A stretch of DNA of 64,000 bases from Salinisphaera orenii subsp. orenii MK-B5. Its GTDB lineage: Bacteria > Pseudomonadota > Gammaproteobacteria > Nevskiales > Salinisphaeraceae. The position numbers and the translations under genes are program-made. How positions within the stretch are numbered: position 1 is the first letter of the stretch; every line of letters starts with the position of its first letter. The notes below the pieces were generated by a model. The model had not been told where the DNA came from, ran no database searches, and saw nothing but the letters and a program-made list of their open reading frames with translations. Positions 3,767 through 25,797 of the stretch are shown piece after piece. The DNA lies in the NCBI RefSeq assembly GCF_003788635.1, contig NZ_AYKH01000034.1:124001-188000 (forward strand), in the 5' to 3' direction.

Positions 3767-3794
3767 TGCAATTGCAGATTTTCAGGCAGCGAAC
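3767..3794 (-). repeat. Degenerate terminal CRISPR repeat (leader-distal end)
   Basis: The last ten bases (GGCAGCGAAC on the plus strand, 3785-3794) match the repeat exactly, and the following 32 bases are spacer-length, ending precisely where the first full repeat begins at 3827. The other 18 bases have diverged, which destroys the hairpin arm. Decay of the final repeat at the old end is common in CRISPR arrays and supports placing the leader at the high-coordinate end. Confidence 0.85.
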
Positions 3795-3974
3795 GTCCGG
3801 CTCGGCCTCCTGCGTCACGAGGCGCTTTTCTTAGCTGCCTACGCGGCAGCGAACCTGCGCGTGTGGGACGCGGGCTGGCCGGAATCTTTCTTAGCTGCCT
3901 ACGCGGCAGCGAACAGGTAGATGTTGCAGACGCGGTTGCGCGGGATTTTCTTAGCTGCCTACGCGGCAGCGAAC

Positions 3975-4006
3975 GAACCACCGCTGGCAATCGTTCGAAT
4001 CCCCTT
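3975..4006 (-). repeat. Duplicated spacer, older copy (32 bases)
   Basis: This spacer begins GAACCACCGCTGG on the plus strand and recurs at 4991-5022. The neighbouring spacers of the two copies are unrelated, so this is not a block duplication of several units. Confidence 0.9.
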
Positions 4007-4990
4007 TTTCTTAGCTGCCTACGCGGCAGCGAACGTCACCACCACCACCATCGCGATCGAGCGCAATTTCTTAGCTGCCTACGCGGCAGCGAACGCGTCG
4101 GATACGCTCTCGAACGCCGGGCAATATTTCTTAGCTGCCTACGCGGCAGCGAACCTGCCGCGCCGCGTGACCGTGATCGCGGTGCATTTCTTAGCTGCCT
4201 ACGCGGCAGCGAACGCGAGCTCGCGGGCGCTCGCGCCGGAGTGGTATTTCTTAGCTGCCTACGCGGCAGCGAACCTGATCACGGCGCCGGGGTCGCTCAC
4301 GGTGCCTTTCTTAGCTGCCTACGCGGCAGCGAACCGCGCCGTCTCCGGCCTGCCGGCGCACGTGGATTTCTTAGCTGCCTACGCGGCAGCGAACGAATGC
4401 AGGCTCAAGATCAGCTGCGCCATCTTTTTCTTAGCTGCCTACGCGGCAGCGAACGCCATGCCTGATCTGCTGACCGCCCGCCAGCTTTTCTTAGCTGCCT
4501 ACGCGGCAGCGAACGCATGCGGTCAATAGCATCGAGAGCGCGATCATTTCTTAGCTGCCTACGCGGCAGCGAACTATGCCAGCCGGAGCAGCCGCAGCGA
4601 ATCCGTTTTCTTAGCTGCCTACGCGGCAGCGAACTCACAGTGCAGATTTGATTTCCTGCACGGGCTTTTCTTAGCTGCCTACGCGGCAGCGAACGAGACG
4701 CCGAGCAGCCGCTTTTTGAACTCGGATTTCTTAGCTGCCTACGCGGCAGCGAACCGGCCGCGTTTGCGCAACTCGCCGGGGACGCTTTTCTTAGCTGCCT
4801 ACGCAGCAGCGAACGACGTGGCGCGCATCGGGTATGACCCGGTGACTTTCTTAGCTGCCTACGCGGCAGCGAACGCGGTGAACTCCGGGGCGTTTCCTTG
4901 GGTGTTTTTCTTAGCTGCCTACGCGGCAGCGAACGGAAATCAGGTCGATTTCGTCGCTCAGGTCTTTTTCTTAGCTGCCTACGCGGCAGC

Positions 4991-5022
4991 GAACCACCGC
5001 TGGCAATCGTTCGAATCCCCTT
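4991..5022 (-). repeat. Duplicated spacer, second copy fused to its repeat (28 bases of unique spacer)
   Basis: The second copy is identical to 3975-4006, but its first four bases GAAC coincide with the last four bases of the preceding repeat. The spacer between repeats is therefore 28 bases and the array phase shifts by four. Loss of one GAAC from a GAACGAAC junction by slippage explains it. Confidence 0.85.
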
Positions 5023-8000
5023 TTTCTTAGCTGCCTACGCGGCAGCGAACCCGTCATACGTCACGTGGTAGAGCCAGCCGTCTTTCTTAGCTGCCTACGC
5101 GGCAGCGAACGCCTACGGCGTCTCGGATTTCATCGTCGTGTCTTTCTTAGCTGCCTACGCGGCAGCGAACGACATGCCGATAGTGGCTGCCGTCGACATC
5201 AATTTCTTAGCTGCCTACGCGGCAGCGAACTCGCCGGTCTGGCAGGACACCCTGGCGGTGACTTTCTTAGCTGCCTACGCGGCAGCGAACCTGGGCGTGC
5301 TCGGTCTGCCAGTAGTCGGTCCTTTCTTAGCTGCCTACGCGGCAGCGAACTGCACGGGGATGGGCGAGGGGGTCGCGCAGCTTTTCTTAGCTGCCTACGC
5401 GGCAGCGAACTCATCACTCGCACCCCGGGCCGATCTGGTCCGTTTCTTAGCTGCCTACGCGGCAGCGAACGCGCGAATGGGGCTTTCACTGCCCCAACGG
5501 CTTTTCTTAGCTGCCTACGCGGCAGCGAACGCCGGACATCTCCTCCAGCTCGCCGTCGGTCATTTCTTAGCTGCCTACGCGGCAGCGAACGAGATGCACA
5601 AGCAGCTGGGGGAACTGCTCGATTTCTTAGCTGCCTACGCGGCAGCGAACGGCGCCCTGTCCGGCCACGCCGGCAAGCGCATTTTCTTAGCTGCCTACGC
5701 GGCAGCGAACCCCGATCGGATTGTCGTCGGACAGAACGGCTTTTTCTTAGCTGCCTACGCGGCAGCGAACACCAACAAAGCGATCTCAGCAGACAATTTA
5801 GATTTCTTAGCTGCCTACGCGGCAGCGAACCGTTTATGGGAATACGTCAACACCTTTATTAATTTCTTAGCTGCCTACGCGGCAGCGAACCTCGGACCCG
5901 CGACCAGATCGCGAGACATTCATTTCTTAGCTGCCTACGCGGCAGCGAACGACTCATACAAGCACCCCGCGCTACCCGGCCCTTTCTTAGCTGCCTACGC
6001 GGCAGCGAACTCGTATCCGTTCATCGATTTTCAAGACGAGCATTTCTTAGCTGCCTACGCGGCAGCGAACCCGGCGGCGGCGGTCATGCGTTCGATGTTC
6101 ATTTTCTTAGCTGCCTACGCGGCAGCGAACGGCGCCGAGTTGGTCGCGGCGCATGCGGACTATTTCTTAGCTGCCTACGCGGCAGCGAACCTGCAGGGTT
6201 CGCGGGTCCATGTGTCCGAGCATTTCTTAGCTGCCTACGCGGCAGCGAACGAAGAGCGTGACGCCGTGGCCGCTCTCGCCAATTTCTTAGCTGCCTACGC
6301 GGCAGCGAACAGCGCGTGGCAGAAGCTCCAGCGTAACGCGCTTTTCTTAGCTGCCTACGCGGCAGCGAACCGCTTCAGCAACAGTTTGCCACCGCCGCAC
6401 AGTTTCTTAGCTGCCTACGCGGCAGCGAACACCAGCGTTTCGATCAGCTCCGCGCGGTTCTTTCTTAGCTGCCTACGCGGCAGCTAACGCGTCGATGATC
6501 TGGAGTTTGTCGGCAAACAGTTTCTTAGCTGCCTACGCGGCAGCGAACGCTCGAACAGCCCGACGCCCGACAATGACCTTTTTCTTAGCTGCCTACGCGG
6601 CAGCGAACTCGATGCACCTGTGCGAGCAGTTCCAGGCGATTTTCTTAGCTGCCTACGCGGCAGCGAACCAGCCGCCTACGGCATCCTCGACGGCGCGGCA
6701 TTTCTTAGCTGCCTACGCGGCAGCGAACGTCGGCGGCGTACTGATCGGCGGCGCGTTTCATTTCTTAGCTGCCTACGCGGCAGCGAACCACCGTACGTCA
6801 CGGGCAGCAAGAAGATTCTCGTTTCTTAGCTGCCTACGCGGCAGCGAACGCCCCGATTCGGAGGTCGAACTGTAATGCGATTTTCTTAGCTGCCTACGCG
6901 GCAGCGAACTCCATGAATCGCCGGACGCGGTCGTAATGTTCTTTCTTAGCTGCCTACGCGGCAGCGAACTGCAACTCATGGCCGACGAGGCGCGCCGGCG
7001 TTTTCTTAGCTGCCTACGCGGCAGCGAACGGACTGCCGCGGGGCCCTGCGCCATCGCGGCCTTTCTTAGCTGCCTACGCGGCAGCGAACGACCAGCTGAC
7101 CGCGGATATCGCCCGTCTCGTTTTCTTAGCTGCCTACGCGGCAGCGAACTTTCAGGACGCGGAGGCCATACGGCGGAACAATTTCTTAGCTGCCTACGCG
7201 GCAGCGAACTCATGCCCGCGACCGCTCGAGATCCGGGGTACTTTCTTAGCTGCCTACGCGGCAGCGAACCGCGATCTACCGTTCACCGCGACCCTCGCCA
7301 ATTTCTTAGCTGCCTACGCGGCAGCGAACCCCTCCACGCCGATGCCGAGGCTCGCGAGAATTTTCTTAGCTGCCTACGCGGCAGCGAACGCGAGCAGCTG
7401 GCGGTGCGCGCCGGGGTGGCATTTCTTAGCTGCCTACGCGGCAGCGAACACCTCGGCATCGCCACTGGAGCTGTTGCGGATTTTCTTAGCTGCCTACGCG
7501 GCAGCGAACTATCGCCCCTGGACGGCCCCACACGGCGTGCTTTTCTTAGCTGCCTACGCGGCAGCGAACGGGCGGGATATGGCACATGCCTACAAATTCG
7601 TTTTCTTAGCTGCCTACGCGGCAGCGAACATCATCTGAAAAAGGTGCGGCGACAATCGTTATTTCTTAGCTGCCTACGCGGCAGCGAACGCTCACCCGCC
7701 CATTCGACACGGCGTGCCACTTTTCTTAGCTGCCTACGCGGCAGCGAACCGCTCGGTTTCGGCATCGACCAGCAGGACAAATTTCTTAGCTGCCTACGCG
7801 GCAGCGAACCCTTGCTGCCTGGCGGTCTTTTCGCTGTATCCTTTCTTAGCTGCCTACGCGGCAGCGAACCTCATGGTGATCTAGCGCCGACTCGACACAC
7901 TTTTCTTAGCTGCCTACGCGGCAGCGAACGATGGAAAAACTCGGGTATGGGTGGGCCTACCTTTCTTAGCTGCCTACGCGGCAGCGAACGTCGTCGTGGC

Positions 8001-8846
8001 CGACTGGACGGATCATAATCATTTCTTAGCTGCCTACGCGGCAGCGAACGTTGTCGGGCGTTGGGTTATTCGATGCGTCTTTTTCTTAGCTGCCTACGCG
8101 GCAGCGAACTTCGATCGGTCCGGGCTGGCGTCCTCGCCGTATTTCTTAGCTGCCTACGCGGCAGCGAACCTCAGGACGAGCTCGACCCCGCGACTGAATA
8201 TTTTCTTAGCTGCCTACGCGGCAGCGAACCCGGACGTCGAACGGGCCTACGAGCGGTTCCATTTCTTAGCTGCCTACGCGGCAGCGAACAGACCGCGTTG
8301 AATCCCACACATCGGCCTCGATTTCTTAGCTGCCTACGCGGCAGCGAACTTTGCTCTAGCCGGTCTTGGTCGTGGCTCTTGTTTCTTAGCTGCCTACGCG
8401 GCAGCGAACCTTAAGATTTCGAGTCTCGCGTCGGTTTTTCCTTTTCTTAGCTGCCTACGCGGCAGCGAACGATTTCTGCTTTGTGCTCATGAGCCTCGTT
8501 ACTTTCTTAGCTGCCTACGCGGCAGCGAACCAGGCCGAGCGTCTGTGGGCGATGCCTTGGAGTTTCTTAGCTGCCTACGCGGCAGCGAACGCTGGCCAGT
8601 TGTAAAGGATTTCTTTACTGCTTTTCTTAGCTGCCTACGCGGCAGCGAACGCTGCGATCAGTGCACGCTCATGAGCGTCTCTTTTCTTAGCTGCCTACGC
8701 GGCAGCGAACAAAAAGCCCCATCAAGCGGGGGAGCACTTGATTTTCTTAGCTGCCTACGCGGCAGCGAACGCGCGGGAGTCTCGAATCTGACGACTGCGT
8801 TCTTTCTTAGCTGCCTACGCGGCAGCGAACTAGAGACATATATTTA

Positions 8847-8914: not shown

Positions 8915-8960
8915 AAGTGACTGATTTATAGACTATACGTTTGGACGCTGAGAAAAAGGG

Positions 8961-9527
8961 TCAAAACCATGGGATGGTCGCGCCACGACTGAGCCCGTAT
9001 GTGTTGAATTGGCCAGGTTCGGGATTCGGCTGAACGGGGCCGTGCTCGATGAACAGACTGAAACGTTGGCCGGTGCTTGTACTGCGTATCTGTACGAACG
9101 GTAGTGACACGCGTTGTTCGACGCTGTCGGGGATGCGTTCCAGGACGGTGGCTTCTGACTCGTTGTGCCGGCGCATACGCCGTCGCCGCAGACGTTCTGC
9201 ATTGGTCTTGAACTGCCGCCGCGATACGGTGCGGTGTGAAGCATCCGCAGGGGCCGGCGCTACTTCGCCGATCTCGGCGTATTCCCGCATGCCGCCGAGC
9301 CAGGCGGTGGCCATGAGTGAATCCAGGTCTGTTGGCGTGGCATGGATACGTAATCGGTTGCCAATGTCTCGCGGTTGCAGTCGATGGGCCGGAAAACTCA
9401 CGCCGATCGCGCTCGCATCGAGCGCGACAAGTCGGCGATGCAGTTTCGAGAACAGGGCGCCCATGAGTTGGCCTGCGGGAAAATCCGGGTCCGGCCGAAG
9501 CTGGATGTCGACGTAATGCGATGTCAT
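8961..9527 (-). CDS. cas6f: Cas6f (Csy4), CRISPR repeat endoribonuclease
   Basis: 188 residues, the usual Csy4 length. It binds the repeat hairpin and cuts immediately after it, releasing crRNAs with the CTAAGAAA handle, and stays bound as the head of the Csy complex. The likely catalytic histidine is H30 (SKLHRR), matching H29 of the Pseudomonas enzyme, and the C-terminus ends in the family-typical FNTYGLS and TIPWF. An arginine-rich segment at 110-119 should contact RNA. The ATG at 9527 overlaps the full-length csy3 stop by one base (TGATG), so the two are translationally coupled; the premature stop in csy3, 219 bases upstream, could reduce that coupling. Confidence 0.95.
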   Translation of the reverse strand: MTSHYVDIQLRPDPDFPAGQLMGALFSKLHRRLVALDASAIGVSFPAHRLQPRDIGNRLRIHATPTDLDSLMATAWLGGMREYAEIGEVAPAPADASHRTVSRRQFKTNAERLRRRRMRRHNESEATVLERIPDSVEQRVSLPFVQIRSTSTGQRFSLFIEHGPVQPNPEPGQFNTYGLSRGATIPWF

Positions 9528-10567
9528 CAGCCGCCCTCCCCGAAGACGCCGCCACGGATCAAGGTGGCCATGACGAAATGCTGCTGTTCCGGCGCGGGCT
9601 TTTCGTCCTTGAGCATCCAGCGATCGAGCAGCGTGTAGAAGTCGACCTTGGCTTTCGGCTGACGGTAGGCGGTGCCTTGTGTCGTGACGGATCCGTAGGG
9701 TTCGACCGCGATCGGACCGAGCGCGTTGCTGTCGGCGTCCGGGTATTAGGTGTCGACGGTGCGCAGGGCGTTGCCGAGTTTCTGTGAATGCATGCCCGCA
9801 ATGCCGTCGACAGAGTAGAGCGTCTTGGATTTGTCACCACGGCTGCGATCGAGGATGAGCTCTTGCGATGGGAATACTTCCTGACCAGCGCCGACGCGGG
9901 CGAAGGCGGTAATCTCGAACAGGGCATACTGTTCGCCCGCCAGCCCGTCCGCGATCTGTGCGGCCAGTGCGTCCACGGATGACTGAGCGGCACCGTGGGC
10001 CTCGAAACGGCGAAGATCGAAGGCCAGTGCATCAAATGTCCATTCATATTCGGTCTTGCCCTTCACGAGCTGGCGAACACGGACTTCGACTTCTTCTGCC
10101 ACCAGCCGGTTGCGCCAGAGGAAGCGGCCGTTGGCGATATTGTGGGCGTAGCGCTGTGCGAGCGTGCCGAAGCCGTGCTCGGATGCGTAGCCGGTTACGG
10201 CTTCCGACAGACGTTGTTCGTACGCGGCGTTGTTGCAGGCGGAAGGTTTGCCGGCCCCGCCGAGCACGCGCAGGCTGAACCGGGCCTTGAGCGTGTCGGC
10301 GTCGTGCGGGAGAGTGGCGACGTCCACCGTCTGCAGATTCGGGTTTTCGATCGCCGCGTCGAGTTTAGCCGGGTCCTGGTCCTTGGCCTTGAGTCGGTTG
10401 GAGATCGTGCCGCGCACGGATTTTTCGCGCAGTGTCACCGCCGGCCAGTCGGCGCTCTGGCCGCGGGCGTCCCAGTCGCCGGCATGAAACAGGGCGTCGG
10501 ATGGGTCGAGCTTGCGCTCGAAGGCGAGTACGGAAGCGGTCTTGGGTGCGTCGTCTTTCTTGGCCAT
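9527..10567 (-). pseudogene. csy3: Csy3 (Cas7f) backbone subunit, interrupted by one in-frame TAA
   Basis: Reading from ATG 10567 (preceded by GGGGGAG), the frame runs 273 codons to LRTVDT, meets TAA at 9748-9746, and continues for 72 more codons in the same frame: YPDADS, then a GSVTTQG segment and the [10 protein letters not shown] terminus expected of Csy3. The frame then stops in a TGATG overlap with cas6f. Without the stop the product would be 346 residues, the normal length. Csy3 forms the six-copy crRNA-binding backbone, so a 273-residue product is unlikely to support interference. There is no frameshift. The interrupted codon is probably a tryptophan (TGG) in relatives. A sequencing or assembly error is possible and is the main alternative. 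Confidence 0.88.
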
Positions 10568-10580
10568 GATGATTCTCCCC

Positions 10581-11531
10581 CTAGGAGTGTTTGTGGTCGC
10601 GATAGTCGTTGTTCAGGCGATACACGCCGTGCTCGAGGTCGTTGTCGACGTACCAGAGCAGTGACTCGGGTCGATCGAGACGGTGTGGACTGACCCACTG
10701 GCCGATCGAGTACAGGCTTTCGACAAAACGAAACGGTGTCGTCGCGTCGCGCGCGTTGGCGACTTCACCGGGCTCGTGGGTACTGAGCGTGCCGTAGCCG
10801 ATCGGAATGGGTACATGCCACCCCGGTGTGCTGCGGACCTCCCAGCGATGCGCGCCGTCATCTGCGTCGATGACGCACTGGTGGTGGAGCCGGGCGAAGT
10901 CCAGCCAGGCATCGAGACGCGACGCGCCGGGGGCCGTCGTCTGGAGCGCGTCCAGACGATCGGTCAACGCCTGCTCATTCAGCACGAGCGCAAAGCCGGG
11001 CAGTAGTCGGCTGCGGTGCTTTCGAAACATGGCTTCGTATTCGTCGGCATCGTCCGGCATGGAGACGAGCTGTGGGTGGCGCTTCGTGTCGTTACGGGGA
11101 ATCACGCTGCCGCCGGCGATGCGCATGCCGTGCACGATGTCGTCGATGCCCTCGGCGATGTGTGCGGTGCGACCCTTGTCTGCCCTGCAGTTATCGCCGC
11201 TGACGGCGAATACGAGGCTGATGTCCATGTGCATGCGGCCCTCTTCGGCGATGGCCGCGGTGTCGCCGTCCTTGTTCACGGGGTTGCGGGTTAGATGAAA
11301 CTGCTGAAGGTTGTAGCCGGCGGATGAGGACAGGATTTCGTGGCTGTGACACACCACGCCGATCTGTTCGAGTTGCAGATAGAGATCGTCCGGCAGCTTG
11401 CGTTCCAGCGCATGCATGAAGCCCACGAAGGCGCTCATGGCCGGAAATCCCCAGGTCAGCGGGCTGGAAATGGCGTTCGCGTTCTGTACCCGCAGCCGGG
11501 GCAGAATCAGAAGGTGGCGGGGCTTACTCAT
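10581..11531 (-). CDS. csy2: Csy2 (Cas5f), type I-F Cascade subunit
   Basis: 316 residues, close to the family norm. With Csy1 it caps the 5' handle of the crRNA and takes part in PAM recognition within the Csy complex. The start is the ATG at 11531 (MSKPRHLLILPRL), because family similarity begins at LLILPRLRVQNANA; the frame stays open upstream inside csy1 but is not csy2-like there. It overlaps the csy1 stop by eight bases and ends 13 bases before csy3. The C-terminal half keeps the aromatic-rich GYGTLS and YSIGQWVSP segments. No interruption is seen. Confidence 0.92.
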   Translation of the reverse strand: MSKPRHLLILPRLRVQNANAISSPLTWGFPAMSAFVGFMHALERKLPDDLYLQLEQIGVVCHSHEILSSSAGYNLQQFHLTRNPVNKDGDTAAIAEEGRMHMDISLVFAVSGDNCRADKGRTAHIAEGIDDIVHGMRIAGGSVIPRNDTKRHPQLVSMPDDADEYEAMFRKHRSRLLPGFALVLNEQALTDRLDALQTTAPGASRLDAWLDFARLHHQCVIDADDGAHRWEVRSTPGWHVPIPIGYGTLSTHEPGEVANARDATTPFRFVESLYSIGQWVSPHRLDRPESLLWYVDNDLEHGVYRLNNDYRDHKHS

Positions 11532-12888
11532 CGTCGAATACCTCGGCGAGCGCGGCGAGTTCTTTCTCGAGCTGCGCCTGCCAGTCCTTGCGAGCGCTCT
11601 CGAGTGCATTCCTGACGTTGGTGTCGTTTTCGGCCGCTCTCGCGAAGTGGCGATGTTCCGCATCGCCCATGCGCAGTTTCCGATGGCGGTCGAGGCGCGC
11701 GTTCAGCCAGCGGCTGAAGTCCTGGCACATCTCGGGTAGCCATTCGGTTTCGACCAGGGTCTCGGCGAACTCGCGGTCCATTTCTGCGCGATGCGGGTCG
11801 AGCCAGCACTGTTGTTCGATGGGTAGGCGGCACTGCCAGTCGTCGGTCCAGCCCGGCGGCAGTTGATGCATCTCGCTCGTGAACACGATCAGCTCGTCGA
11901 CGAGTTCCGCAGTGAGCTGATCGCGATAGTCGCGCGTGTGCATGTTGCGGGTCGGGTCTTCGGCCAGGAAAGTGCCGAGTTCGCGGATCGTGGCGCGCAC
12001 GTTGCGGCGTCGGCCATAGGCGTTGAACGCCGAGGACGAGCGGATCGGTGCGACGGCGCGGGATCGCCAGAGCGGCGGCGCCGATCCCAACAGATAACTG
12101 TTACCGCCGCGTTCGCTGTTCAGCTGTGAAATGTTCTGCGGTTTGCTGCCGCCGAAACGCTGCACGGCCAGGCCGGGATAGTCGCAATACCCGGTTTCGC
12201 TGGGCTGGTCCTTTCGCCGTGCGTCGCGGGCCGCTTTCGCTTCGTCCGAAAAGCGGTCGCGATTGATGGTCTGGAAGACGCGATGGGCCAGCGAAGTTGC
12301 ATAGAGCGGTGCCAGCAGATGGAAGTCGTCGTTCACGGCCGGGTCGTCGCCGACCAGCCAGAACAGTTGCTTGCCGCGCGTATGCGATGCGTACCGGCCG
12401 CCCGGCTCGGTGATCGTCGCAAACTGCTGCATACGCTCGCGACCGGTCTGGGGGTCGTCGCTCAGGGCGGCTTCTAGATCCGGATCGGACTGTTCGACGC
12501 GTTCCAGGAGCGTGCGACCGTCGACGTCGATCTTCAGGAACTTGAAGACGTCCAGAGCGGCGGCGTTGCCGACCACGTCCACCGTGAATTGGTCACCGAG
12601 CAGGTCGGTGCCGACGACAGCGCCCGGCCGCGGGGCGCCGGGCGGCGCGTACACGCTGGAGCCCTTGGCGTCGGGATGAATCGGTTTGAGCGAGTGGGTC
12701 ACCACCTGGAGCTGGGCCACCCGTCGGGCGGCGTCCGCGAGCCAGTGTTCGTAATCGAATTGGGCGACCAATGCTTCGTGCTTCGGGTCGTCCTCGGCGA
12801 GCTTCTCGACCTTTCCTGCCAGGCGCTCGCTCAAGAATTCCTGAATGGTCAGACGTAGTTTTTCTGTTTCATTGGTGCTGCCCCGCAT
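11524..12888 (-). CDS. csy1: Csy1 (Cas8f), type I-F Cascade large subunit
   Basis: 454 residues from ATG 12888. Csy1 binds the 5' end of the crRNA with Csy2, reads the PAM and recruits Cas2-3. The N-terminus (IQEFLSERL followed by a charged helical stretch) and the central PQNISQLNSERGG segment are typical of the family. A TTG 45 bases upstream could extend it, but the ATG has AGGGG just before it and fits the family start. The 92-base gap after cas2-3 is the only sizeable gap in the cas cluster and could hold a secondary promoter; TTGACC is present there without a good -10. It overlaps csy2 by eight bases. Confidence 0.92.
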   Translation of the reverse strand: MRGSTNETEKLRLTIQEFLSERLAGKVEKLAEDDPKHEALVAQFDYEHWLADAARRVAQLQVVTHSLKPIHPDAKGSSVYAPPGAPRPGAVVGTDLLGDQFTVDVVGNAAALDVFKFLKIDVDGRTLLERVEQSDPDLEAALSDDPQTGRERMQQFATITEPGGRYASHTRGKQLFWLVGDDPAVNDDFHLLAPLYATSLAHRVFQTINRDRFSDEAKAARDARRKDQPSETGYCDYPGLAVQRFGGSKPQNISQLNSERGGNSYLLGSAPPLWRSRAVAPIRSSSAFNAYGRRRNVRATIRELGTFLAEDPTRNMHTRDYRDQLTAELVDELIVFTSEMHQLPPGWTDDWQCRLPIEQQCWLDPHRAEMDREFAETLVETEWLPEMCQDFSRWLNARLDRHRKLRMGDAEHRHFARAAENDTNVRNALESARKDWQAQLEKELAALAEVFDDE

Positions 12889-12980
12889 ATCCCCTCGCGC
12901 ACGCGTTGTTGGTCGATGACTCTGTTGTCCCAAGACTAGTCATCGGCTGGGTCAATGCATGACCTTTGCTTTCTCGCCGA

Positions 12981-15900
12981 TCATGTTTTTCTGAAACCCA
13001 GTAGCGGATGCGAGAGCCAACCGTTCTCGGAGGCATCCATCTGAATCGTTCCGAACAGGCGTGCGCACTGCTCCAGGTCCATGTCGCGTGCCTCGGCAAG
13101 GGCCGCGAGCTCGGTCATGTAGTCGGCGTTCGCCCAGGGCGTGATGCGTTCGGCAGTCAGCGTCTCGTCGCCGATGCGGCGATTGAAGCGGCCTTCGACC
13201 GCGGTTTCCTGGGGTGGGCCGAACTTCTGCGGCTCGCTTTGTACGAGCTGATAGTCGGTTTCGTCCTCGTTGGGCAGGAGCACGAGTTCGACCTGCGCGG
13301 CGGTCTGCTCACGAAAGCGTTGCTGCTGTGCGAGGACGCCGGTAAGCCACAAGTCGGGGCGTGAATAAGCGCTATGGGCGGCGAGTGCCGGCGCGGCTGG
13401 TGCGCTGCGTCGGCGGCGACCTCGGCTCGGTTGTGTCGGCGCCGGCGCCGGCGCTGTCGCGGGCGCGAGCAGGTCGTCGGCCATCCGGGCGTGCTCGAGA
13501 TCCACCAGGCTGTGGCGGGCATCGAGTGGTTCGCGAGCCACCAGGCGCGGTCGTGCGTCGATGATGCGGTATTCGTCTTCGGCCAGCAGTTGGGAGAGGG
13601 CGTGGCTCGCAAGTCGGTGGTCGCTGTCCTCGAAGCCGGGGCGGCGGAACACCGGTTCACCCGGCTCGGCCGTCAGCGCGCGCCAGTTGCGCTCCAGCAG
13701 GATGATGTTGTCGTGTTCCGCCTCGCCGAGGCGATGACGACGCACGCGCCCGGCCAGCTGGATGATCGAACGCATGGAGGAGGGCTCGACCACGGCCCAG
13801 TCGTAATCGTGGTCGCGGCCGACCTCGGTGACTGGAGAGCCGAGCACGATGAACAGCTGATCGGGTTCGGTGGCGTGGTCCAGATGGCGGCGTATGTCGG
13901 CGAGTTCGTAAACGGCGGCCGGGTCTCGGCGATCCAATGCCGCATCCAGCCGGGTTTCGATGGCCGAGCGCGCCAGTAACGGGAACTGGGCGTGATAGAC
14001 GCACAAATGAAACCGGACCCCGGGCGGCGCATCGAGGGCATAAAGCGCCCGGGCGATATCGAAAAGCGGGCCGATATTCGCCATGCGGATGAGACCGAAG
14101 CTCACGCGGTGGCCGGTGTGCGGATCGGTTTCGTGATGGTGCTCGTGCAGGGCCATCGCATGGGTTTGAAGCGCTTCGGCGAACTGTCGCGGAAGTTCGT
14201 CGCGCTTCGAACGCGCGACACCGAGCTCGGTGATCCTGGCGCGGCGATGTGGCATCGCCTTCGACAGCGCGGTGGCGCGACGCGCGGCGAATGCGTCGTG
14301 CCGGGCGCGGAACGACGCGCTGTCTGAACAGTCGTGGTGCACGCGATCATGCTCGTCGAACCAGGCGCAGCAGATGTCCAACGGTTGGCCCGGCTCGCCG
14401 CGGTTCTTCTGGAACTCCGCGCGTCCGGCGCGATAGGCGCGAAACAGGCCTTCGACCATCGCCGGCGGCAATGTGGCGGAGGACAGGATGAGCCGGGAAC
14501 CGAGCAGCCCGGTCCAGTAGACCAGCCGACACAGCGCAGGCATGTCGCTCTGGCCGAAATCGTCCGGCTCATCGAGGATCAGGTCGGCCCCCATCAGGCG
14601 GAGCATCGGCGCGATCTGGCCGCCACCGCGGAGGCTCTCGGTGGCCGGCATCAGATGATCGATGGTGCAGACCAGGATCGGCGCGGCGATCAGCGACCGT
14701 GCATGCGGGGATTTCACGACCCGTGACAGCAGCGGATGCTCGTCGATGCGGCCGTTGAAATGAACATAGCTGTCGCTATCGAACAGAGGTTCCGCCGAGC
14801 TGCGGCCCTGGGTATCGAGTTCGGCTTCGCGATGATGGAACAGCGCGCGGCTGGCCTGTCCGCCGACGCGAATCGCGAGATCGTCGCTCGATAGATTGAG
14901 ATCGCGCCGATAGGCGCTGCCAGTCTGTAATGTGAGCGTGCGTAGCCCCAGGGCGATGGTGAAACGCGTGCCGCGGTCGGGATCGGACAGGGCGTAGCAG
15001 ATGCGGCCGTTGGCCAACGTCTTGCCGCAGCCGGTCGAAGCCATGTTGATGCCGAAGAACCCCTGCCGCTCGCTGCGATCGCGCAGAGACGCGCTCAGGT
15101 CGAACGCCCGATCCTGCCAGCGAAAGCGTGCGTCCTTGCTGCGCCTGCGAAAGCCCTTGTGACGGGCGATTCGCGGTAGCGCGGCAATGGTGTCGGGCAG
15201 ACGATGGCTGATCGCACCGACCTCCCGGGTGACGCCCAGCAAATGATCGTCGAGTCGCTGCGCCAGCGCGTTCTCGCTGTCTGTGTTGGCGAACAGGGGA
15301 AAGTCGGTATCGCCCGCCGTCGGGCGATGGCGAGCCTGATCGCTCAGGCTGGAGTAGTGATGATCCGCCAGCATCAGACACAGCCGCGCGATATGCAGCG
15401 CGTACGGGTTGTGGATATCGACCGCGGCGAGCGTCGATCGACGGGCAAGGCTTTGGCGCGCGATGCGGGTGGCGCGCTTGCACCACGCATGGCTACGGCT
15501 CGGCAGACCGTGCGGGAACGTCCAGTACGGCGCGATCGTTGCCGCATCGTCGGGCGCATCGATTTCATTCCAGCCGGCGTGGATACCGTCCGGCAGGTCG
15601 GGAATCGAATCGGCGTTGTCCCGCGTGGACTTGCGGCCGATGCGTTGCTGCGCGTCGTTTTCGTCGTAGCTGGGCAGCACGGGCAGACGATGATGACTGA
15701 TCACGAGCCAGCCCACCGTTCGGGCGATGGGCGGCAGGTCGGTTAACGGTAGGGGCGTATTCCTGTTCTGGCCGTCCCTGACGAGGACGCTCAGCCAATG
15801 CGCTTCGTCGATGGCCTCGGGCTTGCGTAGCCGGGCCAGCCAGTCGGCGTCGCCACTGTCGCCCACGAATGCCTGCAGCAGCCTGAGCGATATCCATTCG

Positions 15901-16343
15901 TGTCGATAGCGATTACGCTCGATGTTCTTTCCCGTGAGCTTGTCCTGAAACGCCTGGCAGGCCTTGCCGAAATCGTGGAACAGGGCGGCGAGCGAGGCGA
16001 GCAGGTGAATATCGGTGAGGGTATGCCAGTCGTTTTCGTCACGGCTGCGCAGAACATCGCTGCGCGTGGTGTGGGTCGGGACCGCGCCGCGAAAGTTGAA
16101 TTGCGACGCGTCACCCACGACCCACAGCAGTTCGCTGTGATCGCGTCCGCGTATCCAGTGGCAGGCCACGGCCGTGTTCTTGCGCGCGTTCTTGCGCAGC
16201 ATCCGGCGCAGGGTGTCGAGGCCCGCTTTCGTGATCGGAGTCTGCCAGGTGCGTTCGCCGCGGCGCTCGGCGAACTGATCGAGGACTCGGCGAGTCTCCT
16301 TGAGCGCGTTCTTGCGACACTGCGAGACGAGGACGACGTTCAT
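12981..16343 (-). CDS. cas3: Cas2-3 fusion: adaptation subunit plus HD nuclease-helicase
   Basis: 1120 residues, the normal size for the type I-F fusion. Residues 1 to about 95 are the Cas2-like domain (MNVVLVSQC), which associates with Cas1 for spacer integration. The HD nuclease motif is LFHDFGK (H123, D124). The superfamily 2 helicase shows Walker A as STGCGK (K441) and Walker B as LDEPDD (D591, E592), with a conserved C-terminal helicase region containing QLAGRVRRHR. It unwinds and shreds DNA marked by the Csy complex. It overlaps the cas1 stop by four bases (ATGA). All catalytic motifs are present, so this subunit appears functional. Confidence 0.96.
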   Translation of the reverse strand: MNVVLVSQCRKNALKETRRVLDQFAERRGERTWQTPITKAGLDTLRRMLRKNARKNTAVACHWIRGRDHSELLWVVGDASQFNFRGAVPTHTTRSDVLRSRDENDWHTLTDIHLLASLAALFHDFGKACQAFQDKLTGKNIERNRYRHEWISLRLLQAFVGDSGDADWLARLRKPEAIDEAHWLSVLVRDGQNRNTPLPLTDLPPIARTVGWLVISHHRLPVLPSYDENDAQQRIGRKSTRDNADSIPDLPDGIHAGWNEIDAPDDAATIAPYWTFPHGLPSRSHAWCKRATRIARQSLARRSTLAAVDIHNPYALHIARLCLMLADHHYSSLSDQARHRPTAGDTDFPLFANTDSENALAQRLDDHLLGVTREVGAISHRLPDTIAALPRIARHKGFRRRSKDARFRWQDRAFDLSASLRDRSERQGFFGINMASTGCGKTLANGRICYALSDPDRGTRFTIALGLRTLTLQTGSAYRRDLNLSSDDLAIRVGGQASRALFHHREAELDTQGRSSAEPLFDSDSYVHFNGRIDEHPLLSRVVKSPHARSLIAAPILVCTIDHLMPATESLRGGGQIAPMLRLMGADLILDEPDDFGQSDMPALCRLVYWTGLLGSRLILSSATLPPAMVEGLFRAYRAGRAEFQKNRGEPGQPLDICCAWFDEHDRVHHDCSDSASFRARHDAFAARRATALSKAMPHRRARITELGVARSKRDELPRQFAEALQTHAMALHEHHHETDPHTGHRVSFGLIRMANIGPLFDIARALYALDAPPGVRFHLCVYHAQFPLLARSAIETRLDAALDRRDPAAVYELADIRRHLDHATEPDQLFIVLGSPVTEVGRDHDYDWAVVEPSSMRSIIQLAGRVRRHRLGEAEHDNIILLERNWRALTAEPGEPVFRRPGFEDSDHRLASHALSQLLAEDEYRIIDARPRLVAREPLDARHSLVDLEHARMADDLLAPATAPAPAPTQPSRGRRRRSAPAAPALAAHSAYSRPDLWLTGVLAQQQRFREQTAAQVELVLLPNEDETDYQLVQSEPQKFGPPQETAVEGRFNRRIGDETLTAERITPWANADYMTELAALAEARDMDLEQCARLFGTIQMDASENGWLSHPLLGFRKT

Positions 16344-17323
16344 TCCGAAGCGGCCCGGCGTGCCAGGTCTTCGGCGACGCGTTTGATGGTATCGATCATG
16401 CCGTCGAGCGCTTCCACCTGGGTCAGGCGCTGGATACAGGCCTGGCGGAACTCCTGTTCCTCATCCCCGCGTACAGCCGAAATGAATGCCTGCGGCAGGA
16501 TGACGCCGTCCTTGATCAGGTCGGCCACGTCGAATACCAGGCCGCCGCGTCGTGTCTTGCCGTGGAGCACGGCCAGTCCGTGCGGCAGCCCCAGTACCCA
16601 GCACGCAGTTGCGGCCAGCCCGTACGCCAGATAGTTGCCGTGATCGAGAAACCGGTTCGCCGGATCGGTGCCGCTGCCGCGTTTCGCACGGGTGAACTCG
16701 CCGTAGTCGACACTCCCGGCAGCGAGCTTGAAAAGGGTGCGGGTCAGGCGGGCCTCGAGCGTTAGCAGTTCCGTGGTGTCGCGGGCGTTGTCGATCGGCG
16801 GAAGCTGCGCATCGACTGCCGCTTCGAGCCTGGCCTTGTCGACGTTGAAGCCGGCATCGGGTAAGGCACGGTCGGTGGTCCAGAGCGTGCGGATCGTTGC
16901 CAGACGCGATCGTTGAAACGCTTTCGCCGCTTCCAACCTGAGTGCGTCATCGAACCAGAAACGTACCCAGTGCTGCAGGTACTCGGTGGGCCGATATTCG
17001 CTTTGCGGCGTCAGCCAGGCAACGTCGACGTCGACTTCCGTCGCCGAGAACAGCGGTGTGCCTCCGCCGCCGCAGAATCCGACGAGCACGCCGGCCTTGG
17101 CGAGTTCCCGCATCGCCGCCTGCGTGATCGATGTGCCCGTGCCGAGGAGAATCGACGTCGTATTCGCGATGGGAATATTCCAGTATCTGGATTCACGCCC
17201 TTCGTCGGTGACGTACGAAACCCGCCCGCCTTTGACCAGCACACGACAGTGCTGCAGGTAGTACAGGTTCGCGCGCTTGGAGTGCAGGATCGTTTTCAGA
17301 TCGCTGGGCGCGAGATCTTCCAT
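16340..17323 (-). CDS. cas1: Cas1 integrase (type I-F)
   Basis: 327 residues from ATG 17323, which follows a strong GGGGGAG ribosome-binding site; a longer frame to 17395 lacks family similarity. Cas1 cuts and joins new spacers at the leader end. The metal-binding residues fall at E190 (LTLEARL), H254 (VLHGKTRRGG), D265 and D268 (FDVADLI), the same positions as in the Pseudomonas aeruginosa enzyme. It is the first gene of the cas cluster. It follows the XRE-cupin gene on the same strand after 243 bases, in which no clear promoter or terminator was found. Confidence 0.97.
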   Translation of the reverse strand: MEDLAPSDLKTILHSKRANLYYLQHCRVLVKGGRVSYVTDEGRESRYWNIPIANTTSILLGTGTSITQAAMRELAKAGVLVGFCGGGGTPLFSATEVDVDVAWLTPQSEYRPTEYLQHWVRFWFDDALRLEAAKAFQRSRLATIRTLWTTDRALPDAGFNVDKARLEAAVDAQLPPIDNARDTTELLTLEARLTRTLFKLAAGSVDYGEFTRAKRGSGTDPANRFLDHGNYLAYGLAATACWVLGLPHGLAVLHGKTRRGGLVFDVADLIKDGVILPQAFISAVRGDEEQEFRQACIQRLTQVEALDGMIDTIKRVAEDLARRAASE

Positions 17324-17566
17324 GCTGTCTCCCCCGGGTCCCCACGGGAACAAGCCTCGCCGTAGAACCGGCATGCATGCAAATCCCGTGGTCACGACGG
17401 CTGCGGGGCGTTAGGTCAGCGGGGCGTCGTCTGTGGGGGTGCGGCTCCGGCTGCGCGGGGCGGTGTCCGTCGCGGCGTCATGCGACGGCGTTGTGCACTG
17501 TGCGCCGTGCTGGTGCAGTGTTGCTTCGTTGTCGCGCAACGATCCGTCGTGTGGGGCCGCTTGGCG

Positions 17567-18160
17567 TCAGAACGTGACGGGGGTGTTGATCCAGAGCACG
17601 CGCGCGACGACGTGGCCGGGGTTGTAGTAGCGATGCTGCTGCGTGGAGGCGAAGACGAACGAGTCGCCCGCCTGCACGTAGTAACGTTCGCCGTCGACGG
17701 TCAGCTCGATGCTGCCTTCGAGGACGTAGCCCAGCTCTTCGCCTTCGTGGCTGATGGCGCCGTCGCTCTCGGCGCCGGGCTCGACGATGTGGATGTTGCC
17801 TTCCAGCCGCGAGTCCGGGCTGGTCGGGGCGACGCGTTCGAGGATGATGCGGCCGCCGTCGCCGCCCTTGCGCAGCGTCATCAGTTCGCGCGCGCCGGCG
17901 CGCTGGACGATGGTGTTCGTGCGTCCGGCCTCGAACAGCGCGGCGATACTCGTTTCCAGCACGGCCGCGATCTTGTGCAGCACGCGAAGGGAGGGCGCGG
18001 CGTGACCGGTCTCGATCTTCGAGATCATGCTCTCGGAGCAGCCCGCACGGCGGGCGACTTCGCGCATGCGCAGGCCGCGTGCCAGCCGCAGGTAGCGGAG
18101 CCGGATGCCCAGTTCGCTGTCCGCGGCCGGGTGGGCTGGTTCGCCGAGTTCGTTGTTCAA
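17567..18160 (-). CDS. XRE-family regulator with C-terminal cupin sensor domain
   Basis: 197 residues if started at TTG 18160, which has GGAG seven bases upstream; a longer frame from ATG 18277 is possible but its N-terminus is arginine-rich and unlike the family. Residues about 15-70 form the helix-turn-helix (RLARGLRMREVARRAG, then SESMISKIETG). The C-terminal 75 residues form a cupin barrel (GYVLEGSIELTVDGE, and a later VQAGDSFVF) that would bind a small ligand. Such proteins often control uptake or catabolism genes for amino acids, amines or polyamines. It is divergent from the livK-type gene at 18403 and probably regulates it. Confidence 0.85.
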   Translation of the reverse strand: MNNELGEPAHPAADSELGIRLRYLRLARGLRMREVARRAGCSESMISKIETGHAAPSLRVLHKIAAVLETSIAALFEAGRTNTIVQRAGARELMTLRKGGDGGRIILERVAPTSPDSRLEGNIHIVEPGAESDGAISHEGEELGYVLEGSIELTVDGERYYVQAGDSFVFASTQQHRYYNPGHVVARVLWINTPVTF

Positions 18161-18368
18161 CCTGTATCTCCGCCGATCTGGCCGCTCATGGTACCGAAGC
18201 GGGCGTGTGTCGCGGCGCCGCGCCCCGGGGTGACGACGCGTCCGAGCCATCGTCTGGCACGAAAGTTGTATTTCCATTTATTCAAGTGCATGACCATAGT
18301 TCAAGGCATGATGTGGGCCAGCGGTGTCCTCCAGAGCTTGTACTGGGTGGTTTCATGCCGCTGTTTTC

Positions 18369-18382
18369 GAGTCGAACGACTC
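18369..18382. promoter_or_regulatory. Palindrome upstream of the first transporter operon
   Basis: GAGTCG-AA-CGACTC is a perfect inverted repeat with 6-base arms, ending 20 bases before the start codon at 18403. Its position suits an operator between promoter and start, and the divergent XRE-cupin regulator is the natural candidate to bind it. It could also be a transcript hairpin. Confidence 0.45.
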
Positions 18383-18402
18383 AATCGCGAGGGAGTGACG
18401 CT

Positions 18403-19572
18403 ATGAAATGGGGAATGATCAAGGGGGCCGTCGCCGCGAGCGCCGTGGCTCTGAGCCTGGCGGCCGGGCCGGTGCAGGCCAAGGAGACGGTGAAGATCGC
18501 GTTCATCGGGCCGTTGACGGGCGGCGCGTCGTCGATCGGACTGGGCGGGCGCAACTCGGCGCAGCTCGCCGTGCAGCTGCGCAACGAGGACCCTGATACC
18601 GAGTACGACTACGAGCTGGTCACGCTCGACGACGCCTGCAAGCCCAACGTCGGCGTGCAGGTGGCCACGAAGGCGGCCGCGGATCGCGAGATCGTCGGTG
18701 CGATCACGCAGTACTGCTCGGCGGTGGCGATGGCGGCGGTCAACGTCTACCACCGGTTCCAGCTGCCGGTGATCGTCTGGGGGGCGGTGCTGCCGGACAT
18801 CACCTACGGCAACGACTACCCCGAGGTGCATCGCGTCAACGGCACCATGATCAACCAGAACGAGACCGCGGCCCGGTTCATGACCGACAAGGGCTACGAG
18901 AAGTGGGTGATCATCCACGACACCACCGACTACGGGAAGGGGCACAACAAGTACTTCTCGAAGTCGCTGAAGGCCAACGGCGGCGAAGTGCTGGGTACGT
19001 TCGGGGTGTCCGCCGATCAACAGGATTTCACCGCGGAGCTGACCGAGGCCAAGTCCATGGACCCGGACGTCATCTACTTCGGCGGGCTGACGCCGGTGGG
19101 CGTGCGCATCCGCCGCCAGATGGAGCGCCTGGGTATCGACGCCCAGTTCGAGGGGACGTCGGGCATCATTTCCGATTCCTACATCGATGGCCTCGGCGAT
19201 CTGGCCGAGGGCACGGTGGCCTTTCTCGAAGGCGCGCCGCTGTCGAAGCTGCCGGGCGGCGACTACTTCAAGGCGCAGTACGAGGAGGCGGGCTTCTCCG
19301 AGCCGGCCGAGGCGTACGGCCCGTTCGCCTTCGCGGCGACCGGCCTGCTGATGGACACCATCGAAGAGGTGGGACCGGATCGCGCCAAGGTCACGAAGGC
19401 ATTGGCCGAGGTCGATGACGCCGACTCGATCGTGGGCAAGATCCGCTTCGACGAGCACGGCCAGAACGAGGTCGCGCAGATCACCAAGTACGTCGTCCAG
19501 GACGGCGAATGGGTGGTCTGGGAGGACAGCGAATACGCCAGCGGCGAGCGCAGCCTCACGGGCGCTGAATAG
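18403..19572 (+). CDS. Branched-chain-amino-acid-type ABC transporter, periplasmic binding protein
   Basis: 389 residues. The N-terminus is a Sec signal peptide (positive MKWGMIKG, a hydrophobic core, cleavage probably after GPVQA). The mature part starts with VKIAFIGPLTGG, the typical opening of the Leu/Ile/Val-binding (Peripla_BP_6) family, and continues with two Rossmann-like lobes. No lipobox cysteine is present, so it should be a soluble periplasmic protein. GGGAG lies seven bases before ATG 18403. It heads a livK-H-M-G-F order operon followed by a peptidase and an amidase, so the ligand may be an N-acylated or amide compound rather than a free branched-chain amino acid; this is inference. 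Confidence 0.88.
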   Translation: MKWGMIKGAVAASAVALSLAAGPVQAKETVKIAFIGPLTGGASSIGLGGRNSAQLAVQLRNEDPDTEYDYELVTLDDACKPNVGVQVATKAAADREIVGAITQYCSAVAMAAVNVYHRFQLPVIVWGAVLPDITYGNDYPEVHRVNGTMINQNETAARFMTDKGYEKWVIIHDTTDYGKGHNKYFSKSLKANGGEVLGTFGVSADQQDFTAELTEAKSMDPDVIYFGGLTPVGVRIRRQMERLGIDAQFEGTSGIISDSYIDGLGDLAEGTVAFLEGAPLSKLPGGDYFKAQYEEAGFSEPAEAYGPFAFAATGLLMDTIEEVGPDRAKVTKALAEVDDADSIVGKIRFDEHGQNEVAQITKYVVQDGEWVVWEDSEYASGERSLTGAE

Positions 19573-19683
19573 CCCTGTCTTCCTTCGGGTCGACGCGTAC
19601 GCGCCGCGGTCGTTGCAGAGAGCACGCCCGCGGCGCCCGGGCGCGTCGGCTGTCATGAATCGCTGTCAATCGAGGAGCCCATC

Positions 19684-20604
19684 GTGGACGCAGCACTGCT
19701 GAGTCAGTACGTCGTCAACGGCCTCATGCAGGGCATGATGTACGCGCTGGTGGCCGTGGGGTTCACGCTGTTCTTCGGCGTGCTCAATGTCATCCAGTTC
19801 TCTCACGGCGACGTCCTCATGGTGGGCTCGTTCGTAGGGTACAGCGCCATCATGGGCGTGATCGCCGTCGGCATCGACAACCCCTATATCGCACTGGCGG
19901 CCGCCCTGATCGCGGCCGTGACGCTGGTCGGACTGCTGGGGGCGGTGATCGCGCGGCTGTTCGTGTTGCCGCTGCGCTCGTCGCCACCGCTGAACACGCT
20001 GCTCATCACGCTCATGCTGGGCACCGTGCTCAGAGAGAGCGTGCGGCTGTTCTTTCCGCACGGTTCGCACCCCAAGCGCTTTCCGCCGCTGCTGCCCACC
20101 GATTCGATCGCGATCGGCGGCTTCGATCTGCGCGTGGACAGCGTGATGCTGCTGATCGCCGGTCTGCTGGTGATCGTGGCGATCCATCTGGTGATCAACC
20201 GGACGCGGCTGGGGCTGGCGATCCGCGCCGTGGCGCAGGACGAGGAGACGGCGATGACCATGGGCATCAATTTCCGCTTCGTGGTGCTGGTGACGTTCGT
20301 GATCGGCTCGGCCGTGGCGGCCTTCGCCGGGATCATGAACGGGCTGTACTACAACGAGATCAACTTCAACAGCGGCCTGCTGCTGGGGGTGATCGGCTTC
20401 GCCGCGGCGATCGTGGGCGGCCTGGGCAGCATCTACGGTGCGATTCTCGGCGGCTTTCTGTTCGCCGCCCTGCAGACCGTCGGCGCGGTCGCGATGCCGT
20501 TCGACAGCGCCTACAAGGACGTCTTCGCGTTCACGGTCGTCATCGCGCTGATGGCATGGCGGCCGACGGGGCTGATCGCGGAACGCGTGAGCGAGAGGGT
20601 CTGA
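19684..20604 (+). CDS. ABC transporter permease, LivH type
   Basis: 306 residues, strongly hydrophobic throughout, with about eight membrane segments. The N-terminal YVVNGLMQGMMYALVAVGF and the following NVIQFSHGDVLM are hallmark LivH sequences, and the C-terminus holds a GGLGSIYGAILGG loop that contacts the ATPases. It starts at GTG 19684, preceded by GAGGAG six bases upstream. A 111-base gap separates it from the binding-protein gene, and the LivM-type permease follows five bases after its stop. It forms half of the inner-membrane channel for the substrate delivered by the protein at 18403. Confidence 0.9.
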   Translation: MDAALLSQYVVNGLMQGMMYALVAVGFTLFFGVLNVIQFSHGDVLMVGSFVGYSAIMGVIAVGIDNPYIALAAALIAAVTLVGLLGAVIARLFVLPLRSSPPLNTLLITLMLGTVLRESVRLFFPHGSHPKRFPPLLPTDSIAIGGFDLRVDSVMLLIAGLLVIVAIHLVINRTRLGLAIRAVAQDEETAMTMGINFRFVVLVTFVIGSAVAAFAGIMNGLYYNEINFNSGLLLGVIGFAAAIVGGLGSIYGAILGGFLFAALQTVGAVAMPFDSAYKDVFAFTVVIALMAWRPTGLIAERVSERV

Positions 20605-20609
20605 TCGTC

Positions 20610-21809
20610 ATGGACAACGTTTCTCAGGCATCGGCCGCCCGGCGCCCGGATAGCCCGCAGGTGATTACTTCGCTTGTCATGGGGCTCGTCGGCGGCGCGC
20701 TGCTGACCGGATTCGCGGCCTGGTTCCTCAAGGCCGAAAGCGAATACGTGGTCGGCTTTCTGTTGCTGCTCGCGGTCGTGGGCGCGGTCGCCGCCTCGCG
20801 CCTGGGCGCGCTCGATCGCATCGGCGTGGCCTTCGGCGCATACGAGAAGAGCCTCTATGCGATCGTGATCGCGGGCGTGCTCGTGCTGGCCTGGATCTTT
20901 CGCCAGGACCATTTCACGCTCCTGATGATCACCACCGTGATGGTCTACATGCTGGCGGGGCTGGGCCTGAACGTGCAGTTCGGCTATCTCGGGCTGATCA
21001 ATCTCTCGGGCGCGTCCTTCATCGGCGTGGGTGCCTACACTTCGGCCGTGCTGACCATGCACAGCGCGATCCCGCCGCTGCTCATCCTGCTCATCGGCGG
21101 GGTGCTGTCGGCGCTCGTCGGCTGTCTGCTGATCCTGCCGGTGCTGCGCACGCGCGGCCACTATGCGGCCGTGGTCACGATCGCCTTCGCGATCCTGTTC
21201 GAGAGTTTTCTCAAGGTGAACGACATCCTCGGCGGGCCCCAGGGGCTGCCGGTCGGCGCGATGTCGTTGTTCGGCTGGAGCTTCAACAACCCAATCACGT
21301 TCGGCGGCTTCCAGGCTTCGTTCTACATGAACTACCTGCTGCTCACGCTCGCGGTGCTGGCGCTGGCCTTCGCCCTGGTCAGACGGGTCGAACGCTCCTG
21401 GATCGGGCTCAGCATGGACGCCGTGCGTCTCGACGAGACCGCGGCCGCCTGCTACGGCATCGGGATCCGCCGTTGGAAGGTCCTCGGCTTCACGCTCGGC
21501 AATTTCCTGATCGGCGTGGCCGGCGCGATCTACGGCATGATGCTCGGCTTCATCGCGCCGGCCAATTTCGGGTTCAGCGATTCGCTGATCCTCGTGTCCA
21601 TCGTGCTGCTCGGCGGCATCGGCAATCCCTGGGGGCTGGCGCTGGCGAGTGCGATCGTCGTGATCCTCCCGGAGAAGCTGCAGATGATCCAGGAGTACCG
21701 TTTTCTGCTGTTCGCCTCGCTGGTCGTGCTGGTTCTGCTGTTCCGGCCCGACGGTCTGCTGCCGCGCGGCATGCGCAACTATCTGCCCGGCCGAAAGGTG
21801 GCGCCATGA
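20610..21809 (+). CDS. ABC transporter permease, LivM type
   Basis: 399 residues with about ten hydrophobic segments. Landmarks are GLGLNVQFGYLGLINLSG in the first third and LLGGIGNPWGLALAS near the end, matching the LivM family. It is longer at the N-terminus than many LivM proteins, with an extra pair of membrane segments before the conserved core. ATG 20610 is preceded by GAGAGGG. The stop overlaps the next start by four bases (ATGA), so translation is coupled to the ATPase gene. It pairs with the LivH-type permease to form the transmembrane pore. Confidence 0.9.
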   Translation: MDNVSQASAARRPDSPQVITSLVMGLVGGALLTGFAAWFLKAESEYVVGFLLLLAVVGAVAASRLGALDRIGVAFGAYEKSLYAIVIAGVLVLAWIFRQDHFTLLMITTVMVYMLAGLGLNVQFGYLGLINLSGASFIGVGAYTSAVLTMHSAIPPLLILLIGGVLSALVGCLLILPVLRTRGHYAAVVTIAFAILFESFLKVNDILGGPQGLPVGAMSLFGWSFNNPITFGGFQASFYMNYLLLTLAVLALAFALVRRVERSWIGLSMDAVRLDETAAACYGIGIRRWKVLGFTLGNFLIGVAGAIYGMMLGFIAPANFGFSDSLILVSIVLLGGIGNPWGLALASAIVVILPEKLQMIQEYRFLLFASLVVLVLLFRPDGLLPRGMRNYLPGRKVAP

Positions 21810-22588
21810 GCGAATCCGACACGCTTTTGTCCTGCACCGACGTCACCCGGTATTTCGGCGGTCTGCTCGCGCTCGACCATCTCGATCTGGATGTGCACCG
21901 GGGCGAGGTGCTGGGGCTGCTGGGGCCGAACGGCTCGGGCAAGACGACGTTCTTCAATGTGCTCACCGGCATCTATGCCTTCAGCGAGGGGCGTGCGGTG
22001 CTGGCCGGGCGCGACGTCACGCGCGATACCGCGCAGGCGGTCTACAAGGCCGGCGTGGCGCGCACGTTCCAGCGCTCGCGGCTGTGCCTGTCGCTGTCGT
22101 TGTTCGACAACATCATGGTCGGCAATCACAACCGGCTGAGCCTGGGGATGACGTTCAATCTGCTGCGCCGGCGCGCCTTCGCGCGCGAGCTCGAGGCGAA
22201 CTTCGCCGCGGCTCGCGATCTGGTCGAAGTGTTCAGCCCCGCGCTGGCCGACCGGATGAACGAGCCGGTGGCGAACTTTCCCATGCTCGACCGCCGCCGC
22301 ATCGAGATCTGCCGGGCGCTGATCAGCCGCCCGAAGCTGCTGCTGCTCGACGAGCCCTCGGCCGGCATGACGCACGAGGAGACCCATCAGCTCATGGACG
22401 ACATCCTGGCCGTGCGCGCGCACACGCCGGAGCTGGCGATCGTGATCATCGAGCACGAGACCAGCGTCATCGAGCGCATCACCGACCGATGCGCGGTACT
22501 CAACTTCGGCAAGAAGATCTGCGAGGGCAGCTACGCCGAAGTCATCGAAAACGAAGAGGTACGCGAAGCGTATCTCGGTGCGGCGTAG
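21806..22588 (+). CDS. ABC transporter ATP-binding protein, LivG type
   Basis: 260 residues. Walker A is GPNGSGKTT (K46) and Walker B is LLLLDEPSAG. The usual C-terminal LSGGQ signature region is atypical: where it is expected the protein reads NFPMLDRRRIEICRAL, so the signature motif has diverged, although the RRIEICRAL helix is retained. This is notable because the partner at 22593 keeps a normal LSGGEQ; in heterodimeric ABC ATPases one degenerate site is common. It powers import through the permeases at 19684 and 20610. Confidence 0.88.
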   Translation: MSESDTLLSCTDVTRYFGGLLALDHLDLDVHRGEVLGLLGPNGSGKTTFFNVLTGIYAFSEGRAVLAGRDVTRDTAQAVYKAGVARTFQRSRLCLSLSLFDNIMVGNHNRLSLGMTFNLLRRRAFARELEANFAAARDLVEVFSPALADRMNEPVANFPMLDRRRIEICRALISRPKLLLLDEPSAGMTHEETHQLMDDILAVRAHTPELAIVIIEHETSVIERITDRCAVLNFGKKICEGSYAEVIENEEVREAYLGAA

Positions 22589-22592
22589 AACC

Positions 22593-23306: not shown

Positions 23307-23331
23307 CCCTGGCCGCGAGGAGTTCGTACCC

Positions 23332-25748: not shown

Positions 25749-25768
25749 CGCCGCGGATCAGCGGGCTC

Positions 25769-25797
25769 GTCGCGCCGCCAAACGCGGCCGGCGCGAC
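25769..25797. terminator. GC hairpin between convergent amidase and TetR genes
   Basis: GTCGCGCCG (25769-25777) and CGGCGCGAC (25789-25797) are perfect 9-base arms around an 11-base loop, 20 bases after the amidase stop. There is no T-run, so it is only a candidate terminator for the two converging units. Confidence 0.4.

Follow-up and report, generated by a model that had tools for sequence, protein, structure and literature searches.

The window analyzed here, a 64,000-nucleotide stretch of the genome of the salt-loving bacterium Salinisphaera orenii subsp. orenii MK-B5, carries a type I-F (I-F1) CRISPR-Cas locus on its minus strand (Table 1). The gene content is that of the subtype, with cas1, a cas2-3 fusion, csy1, csy2, csy3 and cas6f lying contiguously, and each of the six genes matches its own Pfam and NCBIfam families. 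The accompanying array, which consists of 28-nt repeats and mostly 32-nt spacers beside cas6f, likewise has the form of a type I-F system. As the first-pass annotation had described, 82 of the 84 repeats are identical; a degenerate 85th repeat, spotted by eye at the far end of the array, brings the number of spacers to 84. The same annotation had regarded cas1, cas2-3, csy1, csy2 and cas6f as open, and their near full-length profile matches agree with this, with no internal stop in any cas gene of the locus other than csy3. The set of open effector genes is incomplete, however, as csy3 stops at codon 274. The true starts of csy1 and cas1f probably lie inside the frames listed, in which the profile matches begin at residues 58 and 36, respectively. 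A single cas1 was found in the genome, with no second copy.

Table 1. Features of the type I-F locus, in window coordinates
Feature	Position	Strand	Basis or remark
CRISPR array: 84 repeats of 28 nt plus degenerate terminal repeat, 84 spacers	3787..8830	-	leader end at 8830
cas6f (csy4), open	8961..9527	-	PF09618, positions 1-181 of 181
csy3 (cas7f), interrupted at codon 274	9527..10567	-	both halves fit the Csy3 profiles in register
csy3 remainder: 72 conserved codons and original stop	9527..9745	-	overlaps cas6f start (TGATG)
in-frame TAA in csy3	9746..9748	-	TGG (Trp274) in S. halophila; Trp in all 94 relatives' loci compared
csy2 (cas5f), open	10581..11663	-	PF09614, positions 1-295 of 296
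csy1 (cas8f), open	11524..12933	-	PF09611, positions 1-377 of 378
cas2-3 fusion, open	12981..16343	-	TIGR02562, positions 1-1109 of 1110
cas1f, open	16340..17395	-	TIGR03637, positions 1-306 of 307

Translation of the 346 codons of csy3 yields 273 residues, the TAA at codon 274, and a further 72 residues that end in GGVFGEGG before the original stop. Two Csy3 profiles run across the interruption in register: Pfam PF09615 is matched over positions 1-260 and then 262-328, and NCBIfam TIGR02566 over positions 1-269 and then 271-341, the one position absent from each being that of the stop. Compared by itself with the Csy3 profile, the 72-codon part reaches 108.8 bits (E = 4.5e-31) and is therefore not a chance frame. 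The TGATG overlap at the csy3/cas6f junction is present. Both the translation and the profiles thus uphold the first-pass view that the frame is broken solely by this TAA and that what follows it is a conserved Csy3 C-terminus running into cas6f. A search of the genome (assembly 98.22% complete) found this csy3 only, and no second copy.

The closest relative, Salinisphaera halophila YIM 95161 (G012; contig NZ_AYKF01000074.1; loci L002, L016, L106 and L110), has a type I-F locus that can be aligned with the window over the entire cas operon (window 8950-17410, 97.7%) and an array with the same repeat. It differs from the window in having an intact csy3, which is open to its end and the same at 1,024 of 1,041 bases (98.4%). 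Two of the 17 differences, at adjacent positions, convert the TGG codon for Trp274 into TAA, and comparison with the S. halophila copy revealed no further decay beyond the stop. The arrays also differ: that of S. halophila, found by pattern and comprising 79 repeats, holds none of the 84 window spacers (best match over the whole stretch, 10 mismatches), so the arrays have turned over since the two lineages split. The sister loci, with csy3 98.4% identical yet no spacer in common, present complete array turnover within little divergence. A further difference adjoins cas1, where about 8.5 kb of the window (17410-25920), encoding a branched-chain amino-acid type ABC transporter set and an M20 peptidase, is missing at the same place in S. 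halophila; there, the end of cas1 is joined directly to sequence corresponding to window position 25920 onward.

Conservation of codon 274 extends well beyond this pair. Tryptophan occupies the position in all 94 relatives' loci compared (L002-L095), which comprise two overlapping sets, one of them (L016-L095) containing 80 distinct proteins, the best 80 of 116 confirmed named relatives. Set beside csy3 of its closest relatives, a comparison that the first-pass annotation had proposed, the codon is therefore a nonsense change at a site that is sense elsewhere. Among 61 genomes (our own and 60 relatives), csy3 is present in 15, our own included. A class-wide sample of 370 genomes yielded csy3 above the family cut-off in 37, again including our own, and in-frame stops occur in two of these 37. 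The other case, from another species of the class (G289:C12:223445-224422), contains an in-frame TGA and an in-frame TAG, two stops against the one seen here. The csy3 of Saccharospirillaceae bacterium S5C81, a metagenome-assembled genome (L093:10001-10921), is also cut short, ending at 307 residues. It is out of the conserved frame from about residue 285 onward, beyond the same tryptophan; this has the appearance of a frameshift and may, in a metagenome assembly, be an assembly error. In the other 79 of the best 80 (of 116) named relatives, csy3 encodes 320 to 370 residues.

The TAA differs from TGG at two adjacent bases rather than one, although a single change, to TAG or TGA, would suffice to create a stop. 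This improbable mutation, the otherwise strong constraint on csy3 and the origin of the sequence in one assembly only (44 contigs) lend some weight to a sequencing or assembly artefact, in which case codon 274 would really be a sense codon in this strain and the system would work. However, two adjacent substitutions without an insertion or deletion are an uncommon type of error, and the other cas genes of the locus are free of internal stops. Further two-base runs also exist between the window and S. halophila, with 54 among 1,283 substitutions in 50,300 aligned bases. Adjacent substitution pairs number 79, against about 33 expected under random spread, which shows that substitutions do arise in tandem or in clusters. 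An artefact is, on balance, unlikely, and the change from TGG to TAA may otherwise have arisen as two substitutions in tandem or by a second mutation of a codon that was already a stop.

Two more specific origins of the change were considered and set aside. Tandem CC>TT changes of the ultraviolet-like kind, counted together with GG>AA, make up three of the 54 two-base runs, the csy3 stop included, and nothing sets this type apart. A Dcm-like hotspot at the second C of CCWGG was also rejected: three of 187 S. halophila sites show C2>T in the window and none shows G4>A, which is close to the background frequency (365 changes of C or G to T or A in 31,199). At nine of the 187 sites it is the first C of the motif that is changed, a count that includes the csy3 stop site and lies above this background; the opposite comparison gives three of 181.

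The pattern of substitution in csy3 bears on the age of the stop. Excluding the stop itself, the two copies differ by 14 synonymous changes and one amino-acid change (nine and one before the stop, five and none after it), and on this ratio the stop is recent, as the first-pass annotation had argued. Had selection on csy3 ceased at the split, the window lineage would be expected to carry about 21 amino-acid changes, against the zero or one seen. The corresponding 95% bound places the stop in the last 14% (no change) or 23% (one change) of the branch, under the assumptions of a clock and neutral synonymous sites and on the basis of few changes. These values suggest that csy3 was under purifying selection until a recent date, with the stop falling roughly in the last 14-23% of the lineage. 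The ratio of amino-acid to synonymous rates between the two genomes is 0.04 for csy3 before the stop, 0.07 for cas1, 0.22 for cas2-3, 0.23 for csy2, 0.28 for csy1 (15 changes) and 0.47 for cas6f (only seven changes). In this pair, csy1, csy2 and cas6f look less constrained than csy3, which may reflect incipient relaxation or, given that a single genome pair is compared, just their usual pace.

Conservation of the 72 codons beyond the stop, where the five changes from S. halophila are all synonymous, could also indicate read-through or recoding of the stop, such that enough full-length Csy3 is made. A young stop predicts this conservation equally well. Moreover, the tryptophan shared by all 94 relatives' loci means that there is no conserved stop at this codon, and none of the 43 tRNAs found in the genome has a stop-reading anticodon or is otherwise a candidate suppressor, although this set may be incomplete because tRNA-Ile is not among them. 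Read-through, which the first-pass annotation had allowed for, is therefore hardly credible.

In the Csy surveillance complex, Csy3 (Cas7f) makes up the backbone, with several copies of it lining the crRNA. The reading we favor, and consider quite likely, is a recent loss of function in which the conserved TGG of Trp274 turned into TAA, Csy3 was cut and crRNA-guided interference was lost. The protein would end 73 residues short. Without its C-terminal part, no working Csy backbone would be expected, so interference should be lost, together with most interference-driven and primed spacer uptake. The array transcript may still be cut by Cas6f, which may still be made because cas6f has its own purine-rich stretch immediately before the start. 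We infer the loss of the Csy complex and of immunity from the csy3 stop and the single csy3 found in the genome. The first-pass proposal that interference has been lost thus probably holds, and the type I-F system is probably switched off.

This reading depends on the importance of the missing part. A 30-sequence alignment shows invariant positions on both sides of the stop, with many of them among the lost residues 274-346. In a predicted model of S. halophila Csy3 based on a 30-sequence alignment (mean pLDDT 75.8, pTM 0.78, with poor confidence at about 270-309 and in the last residues), helices at 310-319 and 326-337 fall within the part lost here. Because the lost part includes these invariant residues and the two predicted helices, the truncated protein is unlikely to form a stable working backbone. 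The truncated Csy3 does retain most of the protein, 273 residues out of 346, and covers Pfam positions 1-260 of 328, but that it should still function, wholly or partly, appears very improbable. Inspection by eye of the frame after the stop likewise revealed no suitably placed start codon from which most of the C-terminal part could be made as a separate piece. A literature search found no tests of truncated Csy3; in the sections of PMC3513311 available to us, the truncated protein is Csy2.

The loss of interference would also affect adaptation. The first-pass annotation had suggested that Cas1 and Cas2-3 could continue to acquire spacers; this is doubtful, since most interference-driven and primed uptake should disappear with interference. 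The array turnover relative to S. halophila shows past adaptation, not present. A 'write-only' locus, in which interference was lately lost while Cas1 and Cas2-3 still acquire spacers naively, is a far-fetched alternative. Were it true, the newest spacers would log encounters but confer no immunity, and nothing would bar them from coming from the host itself.

Self-targeting had been put forward as a possible cause of the csy3 loss. When compared with the whole genome at up to three mismatches, spacers 1, 2 and 3 (those nearest the leader) and spacer 81 matched only within the array, spacer 81 also matching its duplicate there. All 84 spacers were compared with 659,346 bases of the organism's own sequence (with some overlap, and no more than 18% of the genome), the surroundings of seven integrase matches among them, and none matched with fewer than six mismatches. 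The best matches have six mismatches (one spacer) and seven (three spacers), and 11 spacers match with eight or fewer. Reversed-sequence controls reach eight mismatches, for six of the 84, so that the real spacers are slightly shifted toward better matches. The four sites with six or seven mismatches have these scattered through the spacer in every case; two of the sites, matched by spacers 52 and 53, are flanked by CCG on the 5' side. Over the sequence searched, self-targeting is thus unsupported as a cause, and an equally good guess would be drift or loss during cultivation. The stop may have been fixed by drift, in laboratory culture, or because the system conflicted with a wanted element or carried a self-match.

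Three individual spacers deserve mention. Spacers 81 (3975-4006) and 64 (4995-5022) have the same sequence, with spacer 64 shorter by four bases, as though slippage had removed one GTTC, a motif found both at the end of the spacer and at the start of the repeat. The first 14 bases of this sequence match the 3' end of the host tRNA-Glu(TTC), with a 5'-CC neighbor, whereas 13 of the 18 other bases mismatch, so that the match to the host is confined to the seed. Such a pattern would fit an element that uses tRNA-Glu as its integration target, with the spacer spanning the attachment site. Spacer 56 (5471-5502) matches Labrenzia phage vB_LagS-V1 over 31 bases (93.5%, E = 0.04), a weak match that may be due to chance.

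The csy3 stop most probably marks a functional loss that is recent and of a familiar kind, and the case is an ordinary one that leaves knowledge of type I-F systems unchanged. It nevertheless offers a clean natural example of the onset of CRISPR decay, with a single effector stop, the rest in place and an intact sister locus, and could be used to ask how long an array and its adaptation genes persist once interference is lost. A literature search for csy3 nonsense mutations in type I-F CRISPR found no report, and no title or abstract opening in the Salinisphaera CRISPR literature concerned this locus. Among clinical isolates with type I-F systems, the portions of the reports available to us describe Cas6 as absent in two (PMC8615150) and Csy1 as absent in one (PMC7918744), and state for both studies that their isolates have no premature stops. 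These isolates resemble the window in having a type I-F locus minus one effector, but differ in that the loss is by deletion. A closer parallel is type I-F csy2 of Escherichia coli UTI89, in which, according to the Figure S3 legend of PMC3784566, a one-base change from CAG to TAG creates a premature stop, taken in that paper, in the parts available, as inactivation of CRISPR immunity. The UTI89 case differs from the window in affecting csy2 rather than csy3, by one base rather than two, and in having a spacer that matches a resident plasmid, whereas the window has no such match within the sequence searched (PMC3784566). Both share the feature of one nonsense codon in a type I-F effector gene that is intact in other strains (PMC3784566).
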